Shown: positions 18,917 to 22,456 of the stretch, in pieces
How positions within the stretch are numbered: position 1 is the first letter of the stretch
How the letters are laid out: every line of letters starts with the position of its first letter
From: Pontivivens ytuae
GTDB lineage: Bacteria; Pseudomonadota; Alphaproteobacteria; Rhodobacterales; Rhodobacteraceae
DNA length: 64,000 nt
Assembly (NCBI RefSeq): GCF_015679265.1
Contig: NZ_CP064942.1
Location: 2,646,001 to 2,710,000, forward strand
Reading direction: 5' to 3'
Notes under the pieces: model-generated
What the model saw: the letters and a program-made list of their open reading frames with translations, nothing else
Database searches by the model: none
What the model was told of the DNA's origin: nothing
Translations under genes and position numbers: made by a program

Positions 18917-20125
18917 ATGGACCGGCCCGATTTCTTTGTCAGAGCCAATGGGGAGAAGGCGCCGCTGCCGTTCAGCGCGGCGGAGTACGCGCGGCGGCTG
19001 GCGGCGCTGCGGCGGATCATGGCGGCGCGCGACGTGCCGGTGGTGGTGCTCACCTCGATGCACAACATCGCCTACCATTCGGGCTTTCTCTACTGCGCGT
19101 TCGGGCGGCCCTATGCCTGCGTGGTGACGGCGGAGGAATGCACCACGGTTTCGGCCAATATCGATGGTGGGCAGCCGGGGCGGCGTTCGGTCGGGGAGAA
19201 CGTGATCTACACCGACTGGCGCCGGGACAACTTCTGGCGCGCGGTGCGGGAGCTGGTCGGCGATGCCGGGCGGATCGGGATCGAGGCGGATCACCTGACG
19301 CTGGCGGCACGTGACGCGTTGGTCGATGTGCTGGGCGCGCGCGAGCTGGTGGATATCGCGCCCGACGCGATGCTGGCGCGGATGGTGAAGTCCGAGGAGG
19401 AGATCGCGCTAATCCGCGAGGGCGCGCGCATCGCCGATCTGGGCGGTGAGGCGGTGCGCGACGCGATCCGGCCGGGCGCGCGGGAGATCGACGTCGCCAT
19501 GGCCGGCCGCGACGCGATGGAGCTAGAGATCGCGCGGAGCTTTCCGGACAGCGAGCTGCGCGACACGTGGGTCTGGTTCCAGTCCGGTTTGAACACGGAT
19601 GGTGCGCACAACCCGGTGACGGCGCGGGAGCTGCGGGCCGGGGACCTGCTGAGTCTCAACACCTTCCCGATGATCTCGGGCTACTACACGGCGCTGGAGC
19701 GGACGTTGTTTCTGGGCGAGCCGGATGCGGAGACCTTGCGGATCTGGCGGGCCAATGTCGCGGCGCACGAGCTGGGGCTGTCGCTGATCCGGCCGGGGGT
19801 GACCTGTTCGGGGATCTGCGCGGAGCTCAACCGGTTCCTGGAAGGAGAGGGGCTGCTGCAGTACCGCTCCTTCGGCTACGGGCATTCCTTCGGTGTGCTG
19901 AGCCACTATTACGGACGCGAGGCGGGGCTGGAGCTGCGCGAGGATATCGACACCGTGCTGGAGCCCGGCATGGTCGTCTCGATGGAGCCGATGCTCTGGG
20001 TGCCGGAGGGGACGCCGGGGGCCGGTGGTTACCGCGAGCACGACATTCTGGTGGTGGGCGAGAGCGGGGCGGAGAACATCACCGGCTTTCCCTACGGGCC
20101 GGAGGCGAATGTGATCGGGGTGTGA
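18917..20125 (+). CDS. Creatinase (creatine amidinohydrolase)
   Basis: 402 residues, the size of known creatinases, which hydrolyse creatine to sarcosine and urea. The whole chain follows the Pseudomonas-type enzyme pattern: ISANIDGGQPxRR/YTDWRRDN in the N-domain, then WVWFQSGLNTDGAHNPVT, FGYGHSFGVLSHYYGREAG and a C-terminal AGGYREHDILVV-GAENITxFPYGP. This pita-bread fold is shared with Xaa-Pro peptidases, but these creatinase-specific stretches and the lack of the full dimetal ligand set favour creatinase. Sarcosine oxidase or urease genes are not in the window. The adjoining DNA downstream changes abruptly to AT-rich. Confidence 0.88.
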   Translation: MDRPDFFVRANGEKAPLPFSAAEYARRLAALRRIMAARDVPVVVLTSMHNIAYHSGFLYCAFGRPYACVVTAEECTTVSANIDGGQPGRRSVGENVIYTDWRRDNFWRAVRELVGDAGRIGIEADHLTLAARDALVDVLGARELVDIAPDAMLARMVKSEEEIALIREGARIADLGGEAVRDAIRPGAREIDVAMAGRDAMELEIARSFPDSELRDTWVWFQSGLNTDGAHNPVTARELRAGDLLSLNTFPMISGYYTALERTLFLGEPDAETLRIWRANVAAHELGLSLIRPGVTCSGICAELNRFLEGEGLLQYRSFGYGHSFGVLSHYYGREAGLELREDIDTVLEPGMVVSMEPMLWVPEGTPGAGGYREHDILVVGESGAENITGFPYGPEANVIGV

Positions 20126-20193
20126 AACGAATAGAACCTTACGAAAGCCTATTTATGTGAAGATTGTTAATCTTACATTTAAGATAATGCTCT

Positions 20194-21027
20194 TCACGAG
20201 GATTTTTTGTTTTTATTTTGAGCTCCGGTCATGCGCAAAATGATTCCAGATAAAAATATCACAATACAGCCGAGTAGTTGTACGTTATTTACTTCTTCAT
20301 TAAAGAATATGTGAGAGATTGTAATGGTTGCAATAATTTGCCAGTAGCCGAATGTTATATACTCCGACCAATGCCCTTTGCTTGTAACATAAGTAATCAT
20401 AACGCTTGCCGTAAGCGAAAATATACAAAATAAAATAATATTAATTTCTCGTAAGCCTGATATAGGTGGATTTCCGTCAAAACGTATAAAAAACACGCAG
20501 GCTGCAAGTGCAGCGCCAATCCAAGATATACTCAAGGGTGATATATCGGTCAAGCCGAGTGCCCGATCCGTCAATGACCTTAGAGATAGAGTAGCCGCCG
20601 CAGCCAATGCCAAGAGCGACCCTTCAACGTTTGTGGTATCACCGGGTTGAAAAATTAATAAAACTCCGACACTAGAAGTGAGAGCAGATCCGTAAAGCTT
20701 TCGCTCAATTCTTTCCGAGAAGGCAATGCGAGCTGAGAGTCCAGTTAATATCGGATACGTAAATAATAGTGCTGTAGCGGTCGCTAGATCAGTATATTTT
20801 AGAGCTTCAATATAGAGGTGCAATGTGCCAACCATAAGTATTGATCGCGTGATATGAGAAACTATTATTCTTGCAGAGAATTTAAGAACAGTTTTATCAA
20901 TGAATGGAGTTAATATTAATAAGGCGCTAAAATATCTATAAAATAATATCTCATCTATTGGCTTATGTTCAATTAATAACTTGCTAACAGTCGCAGAGGC
21001 AGCCTCAAGTGAAACTGCAATCAACAT
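20194..21027 (-). CDS. EamA/DMT-superfamily membrane transporter
   Basis: 277 residues with about nine or ten hydrophobic helices arranged as two EamA-like halves. Visible features include LLIEHKPIDEILFYRYFSALLIL in half 1, ALKYTDLATATALLFTYPILTGLSA after the first loop, and a C-terminal FNEEVNNVQLLGCIVIFLSGIILR. It is AT-rich with codon use unlike all flanking genes. The start at ATG 21027 places the first helix at the very N-terminus and no strong Shine-Dalgarno is visible, so a non-ATG start slightly upstream is possible. It is divergent from the 65-residue peptide gene; it may export its product or a related metabolite, but this is inference. Confidence 0.8.
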   Translation of the reverse strand: MLIAVSLEAASATVSKLLIEHKPIDEILFYRYFSALLILTPFIDKTVLKFSARIIVSHITRSILMVGTLHLYIEALKYTDLATATALLFTYPILTGLSARIAFSERIERKLYGSALTSSVGVLLIFQPGDTTNVEGSLLALAAAATLSLRSLTDRALGLTDISPLSISWIGAALAACVFFIRFDGNPPISGLREINIILFCIFSLTASVMITYVTSKGHWSEYITFGYWQIIATITISHIFFNEEVNNVQLLGCIVIFLSGIILRMTGAQNKNKKSS

Positions 21028-21266
21028 TAAGACTGTGACACCGTTCTTCGTCTTTTTTCTCCGATATAATTCGCCGAAGAGTCTACTCTCCAGACCGGCA
21101 GTGTCGCATATTGGCCGGTGCAGATGGGGGTATTTTTCGATTGATCGGTGCGCGAGCTTCAGGCTTGTTGCAACGCCGCACTCAGCTCTTGGTGATCAGG
21201 CGATAGCGACATATGCTTGGTTAGCTTCAATATGCGAAGCTTGGATAGCGTATAAAGGATGAAAGC

Positions 21267-21464
21267 ATGGCGGTAGTGCAGAAACGGCCTCCGATGGTCG
21301 GCAATGGCAAAGTGCGGCTTGGAAACCACTCTGGCCTGCTATCGATGCGCAGAGGGAGCGTGTTGGAAGTTGCCGATCAAAAGTTGCAAACTATAGTGTC
21401 GGATAAGCGGAAGGTCCGCCTTGGGAACCATTCCAACTTATTTTCTGCCAATACTATTCCTTGA
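21267..21464 (+). CDS. 65-residue peptide with a duplicated KVRLGNHS octapeptide (possible modified-peptide precursor)
   Basis: ATG 21267 follows AAAGGATGAAAGC, a good Shine-Dalgarno. KVRLGNHS occurs at residues 15-22 and 49-56, each followed by a hydrophobic pair (GLL, NLF). At the DNA level the two copies differ in six of eight codons (K, V, R, G, H, S), all synonymously. This means the peptide motif, not the DNA, is conserved. It has no signal peptide or known domain. A perfect hairpin with a T-run follows 15 nt downstream. Small size, tandem core-like motifs and the neighbours (possible enzyme, exporter) suggest a ribosomally made, modified peptide, but no known RiPP enzyme is recognisable. 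Confidence 0.65.
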   Translation: MAVVQKRPPMVGNGKVRLGNHSGLLSMRRGSVLEVADQKLQTIVSDKRKVRLGNHSNLFSANTIP

Positions 21465-21479
21465 AATCAAATTTAATAC

Positions 21480-21511
21480 TGGGCGGGTGATGTATATTGC
21501 TCGCCCATTTT
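21480..21511 (+). terminator. Rho-independent terminator after the duplicated-motif peptide gene
   Basis: A 12-bp stem with three G-T pairs (TGGGCGGGTGAT ... ATTGCTCGCCCA, 21480-21507) is followed by TTTT. It supports a discrete short transcript for the peptide. Confidence 0.8.
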
Positions 21512-21606
21512 CTTAGTATTGCATATTTTTTTAATAAATCCTCTCTTGTTGGGTGGACTATTTTTAAATTTACTTTGAATGTAGTGAGTCTAGATAGGGG
21601 ATTTCA

Positions 21607-22335
21607 TTGTTCACTTTTTTTAATCTAGTCGAAGGCAGTGTATCTCCAAGGCGCGCCACGAAGTGCGGCAACGGGACACTTCCAACCAATGGTTTCAGGT
21701 ATTGTGAGCCACTTAGAATTGCATCGGGGTTCGGTTGGTACGTATATCTTCCTTTGGAAATCTGGTTCCTTTGGGATGGCTACGAGTATGAATGGAGCAT
21801 CGACGAAGGTGCGACCTGGTTCGTTCTCGGTGATTCTATCCAATATCCCAACTTTCTTGAAGAGTTTGGAGAAGCAGCTCCGCCTGATATAGCGGAGTAT
21901 GCGCCACCCTTTGCGTCTCGAACAAACGATCAGGATACGCTTCAGATCTGGCCCGGTATCGTTGCTCGATCGTCGGAAGGGATCGCAGCGCACGTGAGAG
22001 CGCCAGTCAATTTTGAGTACGGGCGCGGTTTTGTTGTTATTGAAGGAGTTATAGAAACTGACTGGTGGTTTGGACCGCTTCTGGTAAACTTGAAATTTCA
22101 AAAGAAAGGTAAGCCAGTTGTTCTGCGTCGTGATAAACCTCTACTGCAGGTCGTCCCATTTTCAAAGAAGGTTTATGAGCAATTCGAATCTTCTGACGAA
22201 AGTACAAAATCTGGCCTTCAGGCGCTTGATCAAGATGAGTGGAGAGCTTACCGTGATACGGTCGTGCGGCGAATGCAAACACGCACGCGTTTAGGTGATT
22301 ACGCCGTCGATGCGCGTCGACGCCGCAGTAGGTAG
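21607..22335 (+). CDS. Uncharacterised protein resembling the DUF6065 family
   Basis: 242 residues from TTG 21607, behind GGGG about 6 nt upstream; no in-frame ATG gives the N-terminus. Recognisable blocks are RYCEPLRIASGFGWYVYLPLEIWFLWDG near 32-58, DTLQIWPGIVARSSEG near 110-125, and GVIETDWWFGPLLVNLKF near 147-164. From memory these parallel DUF6065-type proteins (LPLNIANAHGWEI ... PPGW ... GVIETDW), whose biochemistry is unknown. The Arg-rich C-terminus (RTRLGDYAVDARRRRSR) is unusual. It is AT-richer than the chromosome. It lies 140 nt beyond the terminator of the peptide gene, so it probably has its own promoter. Confidence 0.65.
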   Translation: MFTFFNLVEGSVSPRRATKCGNGTLPTNGFRYCEPLRIASGFGWYVYLPLEIWFLWDGYEYEWSIDEGATWFVLGDSIQYPNFLEEFGEAAPPDIAEYAPPFASRTNDQDTLQIWPGIVARSSEGIAAHVRAPVNFEYGRGFVVIEGVIETDWWFGPLLVNLKFQKKGKPVVLRRDKPLLQVVPFSKKVYEQFESSDESTKSGLQALDQDEWRAYRDTVVRRMQTRTRLGDYAVDARRRRSR

Positions 22336-22456
22336 CAGCCCCTTTTATTAGCTGCGTCTCCAGCAAGTTAACTGGCGCAATGTTTTACTAAATTTCATAA
22401 CCAACTATATGCTCGAAGCAAGACCCTGGTTGATAAGAGGCAACCCAGTGTAGAAA

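Follow-up and report, generated by a model that had tools for sequence, protein, structure and literature searches.

The DNA analyzed here, hereafter the window, is a single stretch of 64 kb carrying a low-G+C island (20126–22456, no strand assigned) between an M24 peptidase gene and hemE. The three ORFs of the island are an EamA-family transporter gene (20194–21027, minus strand; PF00892, 74.4 bits against a cut-off of 28.2), a small gene divergent from it that encodes a precursor-like peptide of 65 aa with two core units (21267–21464, plus strand), and the gene of a 242-aa DUF6065 protein (21607–22335, plus strand), the proposed partner or enzyme of the peptide. Their G+C contents are 0.384, 0.515, and 0.492, respectively, compared with 0.679 for the whole window. 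A preliminary interpretation of the letters, referred to as the sequence-only reading, had described the island DNA as far poorer in G+C than the chromosome and its transporter as a divergent EamA protein, had likened the 242-residue protein to DUF6065, and had assigned a ribosome-binding site to the peptide gene. These points are borne out by the composition (about 0.38–0.52 versus 0.68), by profile matches above cut-off, and by an RBS-like AAAGGA (21254–21259, plus strand, read from the sequence) that precedes the ATG.

In the sole congener examined (G211), hemE is followed directly by a YifB-like gene, so that neither the island nor the M24 peptidase gene is present at that place. The latter gene (18917–20125) has the G+C content of the chromosome, yet is missing at the congener's site. 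A direct-repeat border of the island was looked for and not found, and its roughly 2 kb yielded no identifiable RiPP enzyme, protease, or recognition element. Comparison of the island proteins (P0001, the peptide, P0002, and P0003) with the PADLOC defense profiles returned no family at E values up to 1, and a role of the island in phage defense was dropped. An Rfam scan of the island gave a lone sub-threshold match, to the L20 leader (20.6 bits against 58.7), which was rejected.

The peptide, whose translation is MAVVQKRPPMVGNGKVRLGNHSGLLSMRRGSVLEVADQKLQTIVSDKRKVRLGNHSNLFSANTIP, is present in a single copy in its own genome and was recognized as precursor-like from this translation and from related repeat ORFs upstream of DUF6065 genes elsewhere. 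It contains the octapeptide KVRLGNHS at residues 15–22 and 49–56, encoded as AAA GTG CGG CTT GGA AAC CAC TCT in the first copy and as AAG GTC CGC CTT GGG AAC CAT TCC in the second, so that, as had been noticed at the outset, six of the eight codons differ, all of them synonymously. Relatives show that the unit extends past the octapeptide, to VRLGNHSGLL in core unit 1 (21312–21341, plus strand) and to VRLGNHSNLF in core unit 2 (21414–21443, plus strand). Both were located by pattern match (G000:C1:2667312 and G000:C1:2667414) with limits taken from the family consensus, and the second is preceded by D-K-R-K, where the consensus has D at position −4 and K at −1. Between the peptide and DUF6065 genes lies a terminator-like hairpin (21480–21517, plus strand) with a 12-bp stem, a 4-nt loop, and a T-rich tail, a second delimitation placing it at 21480–21507. 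The hairpin-T terminator of the sequence-only reading stands as far as the stem, the T-rich tail, and the folding of the 142-nt spacer are concerned, the last being better than that of 200 out of 200 shuffles (z −3.62), but the number of terminator-like sites in the region, 2 against a shuffle mean of 2.3, is not above that of the shuffles.

The 242-aa protein passes the PF19541 (DUF6065) profile with 54.3 bits against a cut-off of 26.6, and its strong match spans profile positions 87–201 of 236. Its TTG start codon, preceded by an RBS-like ATAGGGGA (21594–21601, plus strand, read from the sequence), aligns with the ATG starts of the relatives L024 and L012; the former is 56% identical to the window's protein and has an upstream ORF with four VKLGNYSAP units. 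PF19541 matched all 78 close relatives and phrog_7084 matched 66 of them. Across these 78 and 37 distant members, Cys33, Gly43, Trp44, Asn135, Glu150, Thr151, Asp152, and Asn161 are kept, with Cys33 retained in 100 and 97% and Asn135 in 99 and 100% of the close and distant proteins, respectively. The kept residues include no histidine, which, from what is generally known of that enzyme family, counts against a 2-oxoglutarate/iron oxygenase. When solved chains were searched by profile for a relative of DUF6065, the outcome was either no match or weak, chance-like ones (E of 0.31 or worse).

DUF6065 relatives also occur in 57 phage records, from haloarchaeal tailed viruses and cyanophages, and are annotated as hypothetical in all the matches listed. 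In Halorubrum virus HRTV-11 (L034), a distant DUF6065 gene follows genes for thymidylate synthase and DNA polymerase B. A gene convergent with the distant DUF6065 gene is present in L013, L014, and L017; its product looks secreted, contains long Ser-Asn repeats, and has an acidic end.

PF19541 matched in 19 of 394 same-family genomes, the own genome included. In one of these genomes, G168, a weak match to the peptide adjoins the DUF6065 gene and proved real: an 83-aa ORF with four VKLGNYSAP units lies by a DUF6065 gene whose product is 56% identical to that of the window, with a divergent EamA gene on the other side. Close relatives from the same-family draw carry VHIANKSPAF units (L006, L007, and L008), VRLGGVAPAL four times (L010), or AVRLGNSGMK nine times (L012), and a Rhizobium plasmid member has three VHIANKSPAF-type units. 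Single-protein scans of genome_contigs and viral_contigs with P0002 returned no match. A search profile built from an alignment of nine close DUF6065 relatives (A1) found 229 relatives in genome_contigs and 11 in viral_contigs; since the best 80 of the 229 were kept, the sample leans to close relatives. Their sources, by record title, include Rhodobacterales, Rhizobiaceae, Acetobacteraceae, Reyranella, Sneathiella, Bradyrhizobium, and others, together with MAGs labeled Beta- and Gammaproteobacteria. A tblastn search of plasmids with the peptide gave six weak, chance-like matches (E of 3 or worse), a viral-contig scan with the L046 protein found no relative, and a tailed-virus search with L003 found no match.

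The loci counted, 92 without duplicates, each contain a close DUF6065 relative preceded by 250 bp or more of upstream sequence. Dropped beforehand were L036, L037, L046, L053, and L088, which come from the same genomes as earlier loci, L131, identical in sequence to L064, and six loci in which the upstream sequence was shorter than 250 bp. In the Rhodopila-like genomes (the IMG/VR contigs L116–L126 as well as L060, L070, and L096), the pair sits between a YeiH-like gene and phage-like genes, named by eye as terminase large subunit and portal protein, and these neighbors account for the presence of such contigs in a viral collection.

To count as an array, a small same-strand upstream ORF had to contain at least two units with at least 6 of 9 letters alike, ending within 450 bp upstream of the DUF6065 gene. 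Sixty-seven of the 92 loci pass this rule, and, as a wrong segment was picked in L039 and L055, 65 of the 92 have at least two related units, among them L090 with a motif of its own. At least two units were seen by eye in seven more loci (L039, L052, L071, L076, L081, L085, and L130) and a single unit in 13 (L041, L042, L055, L067, L069, L070, L080, L096, L117, L122, L123, L124, and L125), and no peptide was found in 7 of the 92 (L043, L048, L066, L073, L074, L102, and L107). As controls, 573 pseudo-anchor positions and 425 shuffles were put through the same rule, which accepted 3 and 1 of them, respectively. The rule replaced a looser first version that accepted 79 of 94 loci with many false segments, and whose reverse-strand control fired at 45 of 94 because repeats repeat in antisense too. 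A core profile built from one core per accepted array reaches its threshold of 8 bits in 79 of the 92 loci, 64 of which belong to the arrays that built it, versus none of the 573 control positions. Of the calls made by eye, the profile backs 10 of 13 single cores (not L042, L117, and L123) and five of seven arrays (not L039 and L052), and it does not see L090. In draws that were not chosen by core pattern, all 10 close relatives (L006–L010, L012, and L130–L133) have at least two units, one of the two in L130 being called by eye.

The sequence-only reading had staked its proposal on short repeat peptides adjoining homologs of the 242-residue protein and on the small ORF recurring elsewhere, and most close relatives do carry the pair. 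This recurrence bears directly on the view that the island is an acquired low-G+C patch in which a repeat ORF, an orphan DUF gene, and a transporter became neighbors by chance. Its foreign composition and its absence from the sole congener examined would fit such an origin, but the same upstream-downstream pair is present in most of the 92 loci versus 0–3 of 573 control positions. As regards the peptide and DUF6065, chance neighborhood is thereby refuted, and for the island as a whole it is very improbable.

The pairing is specific to one DUF6065 subfamily. A profile of the 78 close relatives (A2) has matches in 35 of the 337 genomes drawn from the class and in 14 of the 299 drawn from the phylum. 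These matches split into a group with E below 1e-70, which in the class draw consists of the own genome and four more, and a group with E above 1e-12; the close members of the class draw (L130–L133) have units in four of four cases. Applied to 39 distant DUF6065 loci, the rule picks out L148 alone, within what by eye looks like a GGDEF protein, so this is apparently a false call. From this near-silence it follows that the peptide belongs to one subfamily. Within PF19541 at large, the peptide-linked members form a distinct high-scoring group, whereas most members of PF19541 and phrog_7084, those of haloarchaeal viruses included, lack such a peptide, and the basic activity of the family therefore need not involve one.

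The consensus of the core, weighted over 61 arrays after removal of false ones and duplicates, is roughly D-x-G-K-V-R-L-G-x-x-A/S-P-x-L/F. Its flank has D at −4 (0.84), A at −3 (0.46), G at −2 (0.65), and K/R at −1 (0.76), followed by V/I at position 0 (0.96), R/K at 1 (0.77), L/I/M at 2 (0.90), G at 3 (0.93), A/S at 6 (0.78), P at 7 (0.71), and L/F at 9 (0.72). A second type of unit reads D-T-G-R-I-R-F/L-G-A-G-x-R-L-P. Some arrays start 1–3 residues past the start codon, and in 15 of 67 the last, tenth core residue is exactly where the array stops, which is the reason for taking the core limits as above. Among the listed precursors, no common stretch precedes the first core by eye, and a conserved N-terminal leader of the kind expected of a leader-dependent RiPP was thus not found. 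The number of units per peptide ranges from 1 to 19 across the loci, which answers in the affirmative the earlier question of whether it varies among homologs.

Successive units differ, over the ten core positions, by 780 synonymous and 157 nonsynonymous codon changes, a count that includes one pair each from the two wrong segments (L039 and L055), where random single changes would give 28.5% synonymous. At core positions 4 and 5 the corresponding numbers are 138 and 12. These are also the positions that differ most between species: in 64 arrays, identity at position 4 is 0.97 within and 0.31 between arrays, and at position 5 it is 0.96 and 0.11. Acceptance at 6 or more of 9 letters raises the within-array identity and the synonymous share; it inflates the former somewhat, but not position by position to the extent seen. 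The predominance of synonymous differences between successive cores confirms selection at the amino acid level, and the octapeptide selection proposed at the outset extends well beyond this locus. As expected of a RiPP, there is thus an encoded precursor with a core selected as a peptide (780 versus 157), given the way in which the units were selected.

The type of core follows the DUF6065 tree, a quick FastTree of 78 proteins whose support values are those of that method only. RLP-type cores are confined to a single clade, which has 28 rows and a support of 96, and AP-type cores, such as VRLGGVAPAL of Elioraea and VHIANKSPAF of Rhodobacterales, lie elsewhere on the tree; an apparent exception, L084, was a labeling error of the type rule. 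The window's protein is one of seven in a clade with support 98 whose cores are aberrant, beginning VRLGN or VKLGN. Such co-divergence could also be expected if the peptide were a disordered multivalent scaffold, each core being a linear motif bound by one DUF6065 protein, with copy number as valency and no small product. The shortness of the cores, the lack of a conserved leader, the range of 1 to 19 copies, and the absence of a known modifying enzyme suit such a scaffold. However, 13 loci appear to be single-core (10 of these reach 8 bits in the core profile) and would offer no multivalency, the terminator-like hairpin separates the two genes in the window, and the SARP-type regulator and drug-type exporters of some lineages fit a product better. 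On balance, we regard a scaffold as unlikely, though it is the strongest competitor of the peptide-product reading.

The pair has a divergent EamA gene beside it in L036, L037, and L038 as well, and an EamA gene is adjacent in five of the seven members of the window's clade. Across the 91 loci L036–L126, EamA-like genes are adjacent in five and MFS-like genes in four, 9 of 91 in total, so the exporter is not a constant part of the system and adjoins it only in some lineages. In L033 (6717–7858; plasmid of Rhizobium sp. WSM4643), an MFS-like carrier, annotated as two hypothetical genes, perhaps by a frameshift, follows DUF6065. A SARP/BTAD-type regulator is present in 41 of the same 91 loci. 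When the count is limited to the 35 non-duplicate loci that have 3.5 kb or more on each side, it is present in 24. Within 1.5 kb it occurs in 16 of 59 loci versus 0 of 37 distant DUF6065 loci (Fisher p 0.0002), and none was found within the 64-kb window. PF03704 was examined in 10 neighbor proteins, of which six score above the cut-off, one below, and three, including an aconitase, have no BTAD match. The high count of a cluster of antisense G+C-rich ORFs among the neighbors was judged an artefact.

A second DUF6065 protein in the own genome (32% identical) has its own upstream peptide with three VKIGGKSPV-type units. This locus (L129:8696–15957) comprises a SARP-like regulator, matched by a custom model and not by Pfam, a subtilase-like protein, the three-unit peptide, DUF6065, and an MFS carrier. 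The subtilase-like protein, encoded upstream of the pair, contains GTSVAAP and scores 16.1 bits, under the Pfam cut-off of 21.8; it is a candidate for the releasing protease. Two paralogous pairs with different cores in one genome, as well as core positions 4–5 that vary between genomes and are uniform within them, resemble pherotype-like diversification and would suit a secreted pheromone-like signal whose cores are cut out unmodified, with DUF6065 serving not as an enzyme but as a chaperone, receptor, or immunity-type partner. Against such a signal, inspection of the precursors by eye showed no signal peptide, the neighbor clusters contain no recurrent histidine-kinase receptor, and EamA and MFS carriers usually move small molecules. 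We consider it improbable.

Taken together, the best explanation, to which we assign a probability of roughly 0.58, is a two-gene, multi-core ribosomal peptide system of RiPP-like character in which DUF6065 would act on the cores. Briefly, the small gene would encode a precursor that has no conserved leader and carries 1 to 19 copies of a core of about ten residues separated by short spacers. The dedicated DUF6065 protein would recognize the core and its D-x-G-K flank and would modify or process each unit, a protease that is usually not encoded next door would release the units, and the small product would be exported, in the window's lineage by the divergent EamA protein. Chemical modification of the peptide, or even its processing, is thus what this scheme predicts; an enzymatic activity of DUF6065, the release of the cores, the export of a product, and the role that such a product may play are points that we infer. 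In the place of the dedicated modifying enzyme of a RiPP, a dedicated partner, DUF6065, is encoded with the precursor and has no characterized or solved relative. Of the precursor, modifying or binding protein, and exporter that the sequence-only reading had combined, the first two recur as a pair (65 of 92 loci by rule), but the exporter is adjacent in only 9 of 91.

In cyanobactin systems, domains for leader recognition and a protease domain are employed; the island of the window, in contrast, has no protease gene among its three ORFs. According to the available text of a report on the thiovarsolins, cyanobactin and phomopsin-type precursors contain several cores each, as found here (PMC6511847). 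The closest described logic is that of the thiovarsolin (var) precursor VarA, whose family, as far as this text describes it, runs from a non-repeating member to one with up to five repeats and thus likewise varies in repeat number (PMC6511847). Small linear products are cut from these repeats, and the cluster has an MFS gene and no specific protease, in the same account (PMC6511847). Thiovarsolins, however, are described there as requiring YcaO and TfuA, with a predicted leader that was aligned, in contrast to DUF6065 and no conserved leader here, and the present core, V-R-L-G-x-x-A/S-P-x-L/F in up to 19 copies, differs from that of VarA (PMC6511847). Clusters of the DUF692, linocin, lasso, azol(in)e, and cyanobactin-like kinds are named in a survey of Acetobacteraceae metabolites, whose available text makes no mention of the peptide–DUF6065 system (PMC8776678). 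DUF6065, PF19541, and the core strings were absent from the literature searched, which left most subscription journals and preprints outside. Multi-core precursors are already known; in that literature, a DUF6065 partner is not.

A more far-reaching proposal, which the sequences lead us to offer only tentatively and at somewhat less than even odds, is that Alphaproteobacteria and some further Pseudomonadota make, from these genes, ribosomal peptide natural products of a new class. DUF6065 would be the enzyme that defines this class, with a previously undescribed fold and a conserved Cys/Asn/Asp-Glu site acting on each leader-free V-R-L-G-type core, positions 4–5 would specify products peculiar to each lineage, and production would be governed by SARP-type regulators. 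If the peptide-product reading is right, such clusters would lack a known RiPP enzyme, and searches keyed to known enzymes may miss them. Since the core can be read from the genome, with position 5 near-constant within an array and variable between arrays, any products would be predictable and testable by mass. If the peptide-product reading is true, widespread peptide products would be opened up, and a function, directly testable with two small genes, would be provided for DUF6065, a family that reaches into haloarchaeal viruses.
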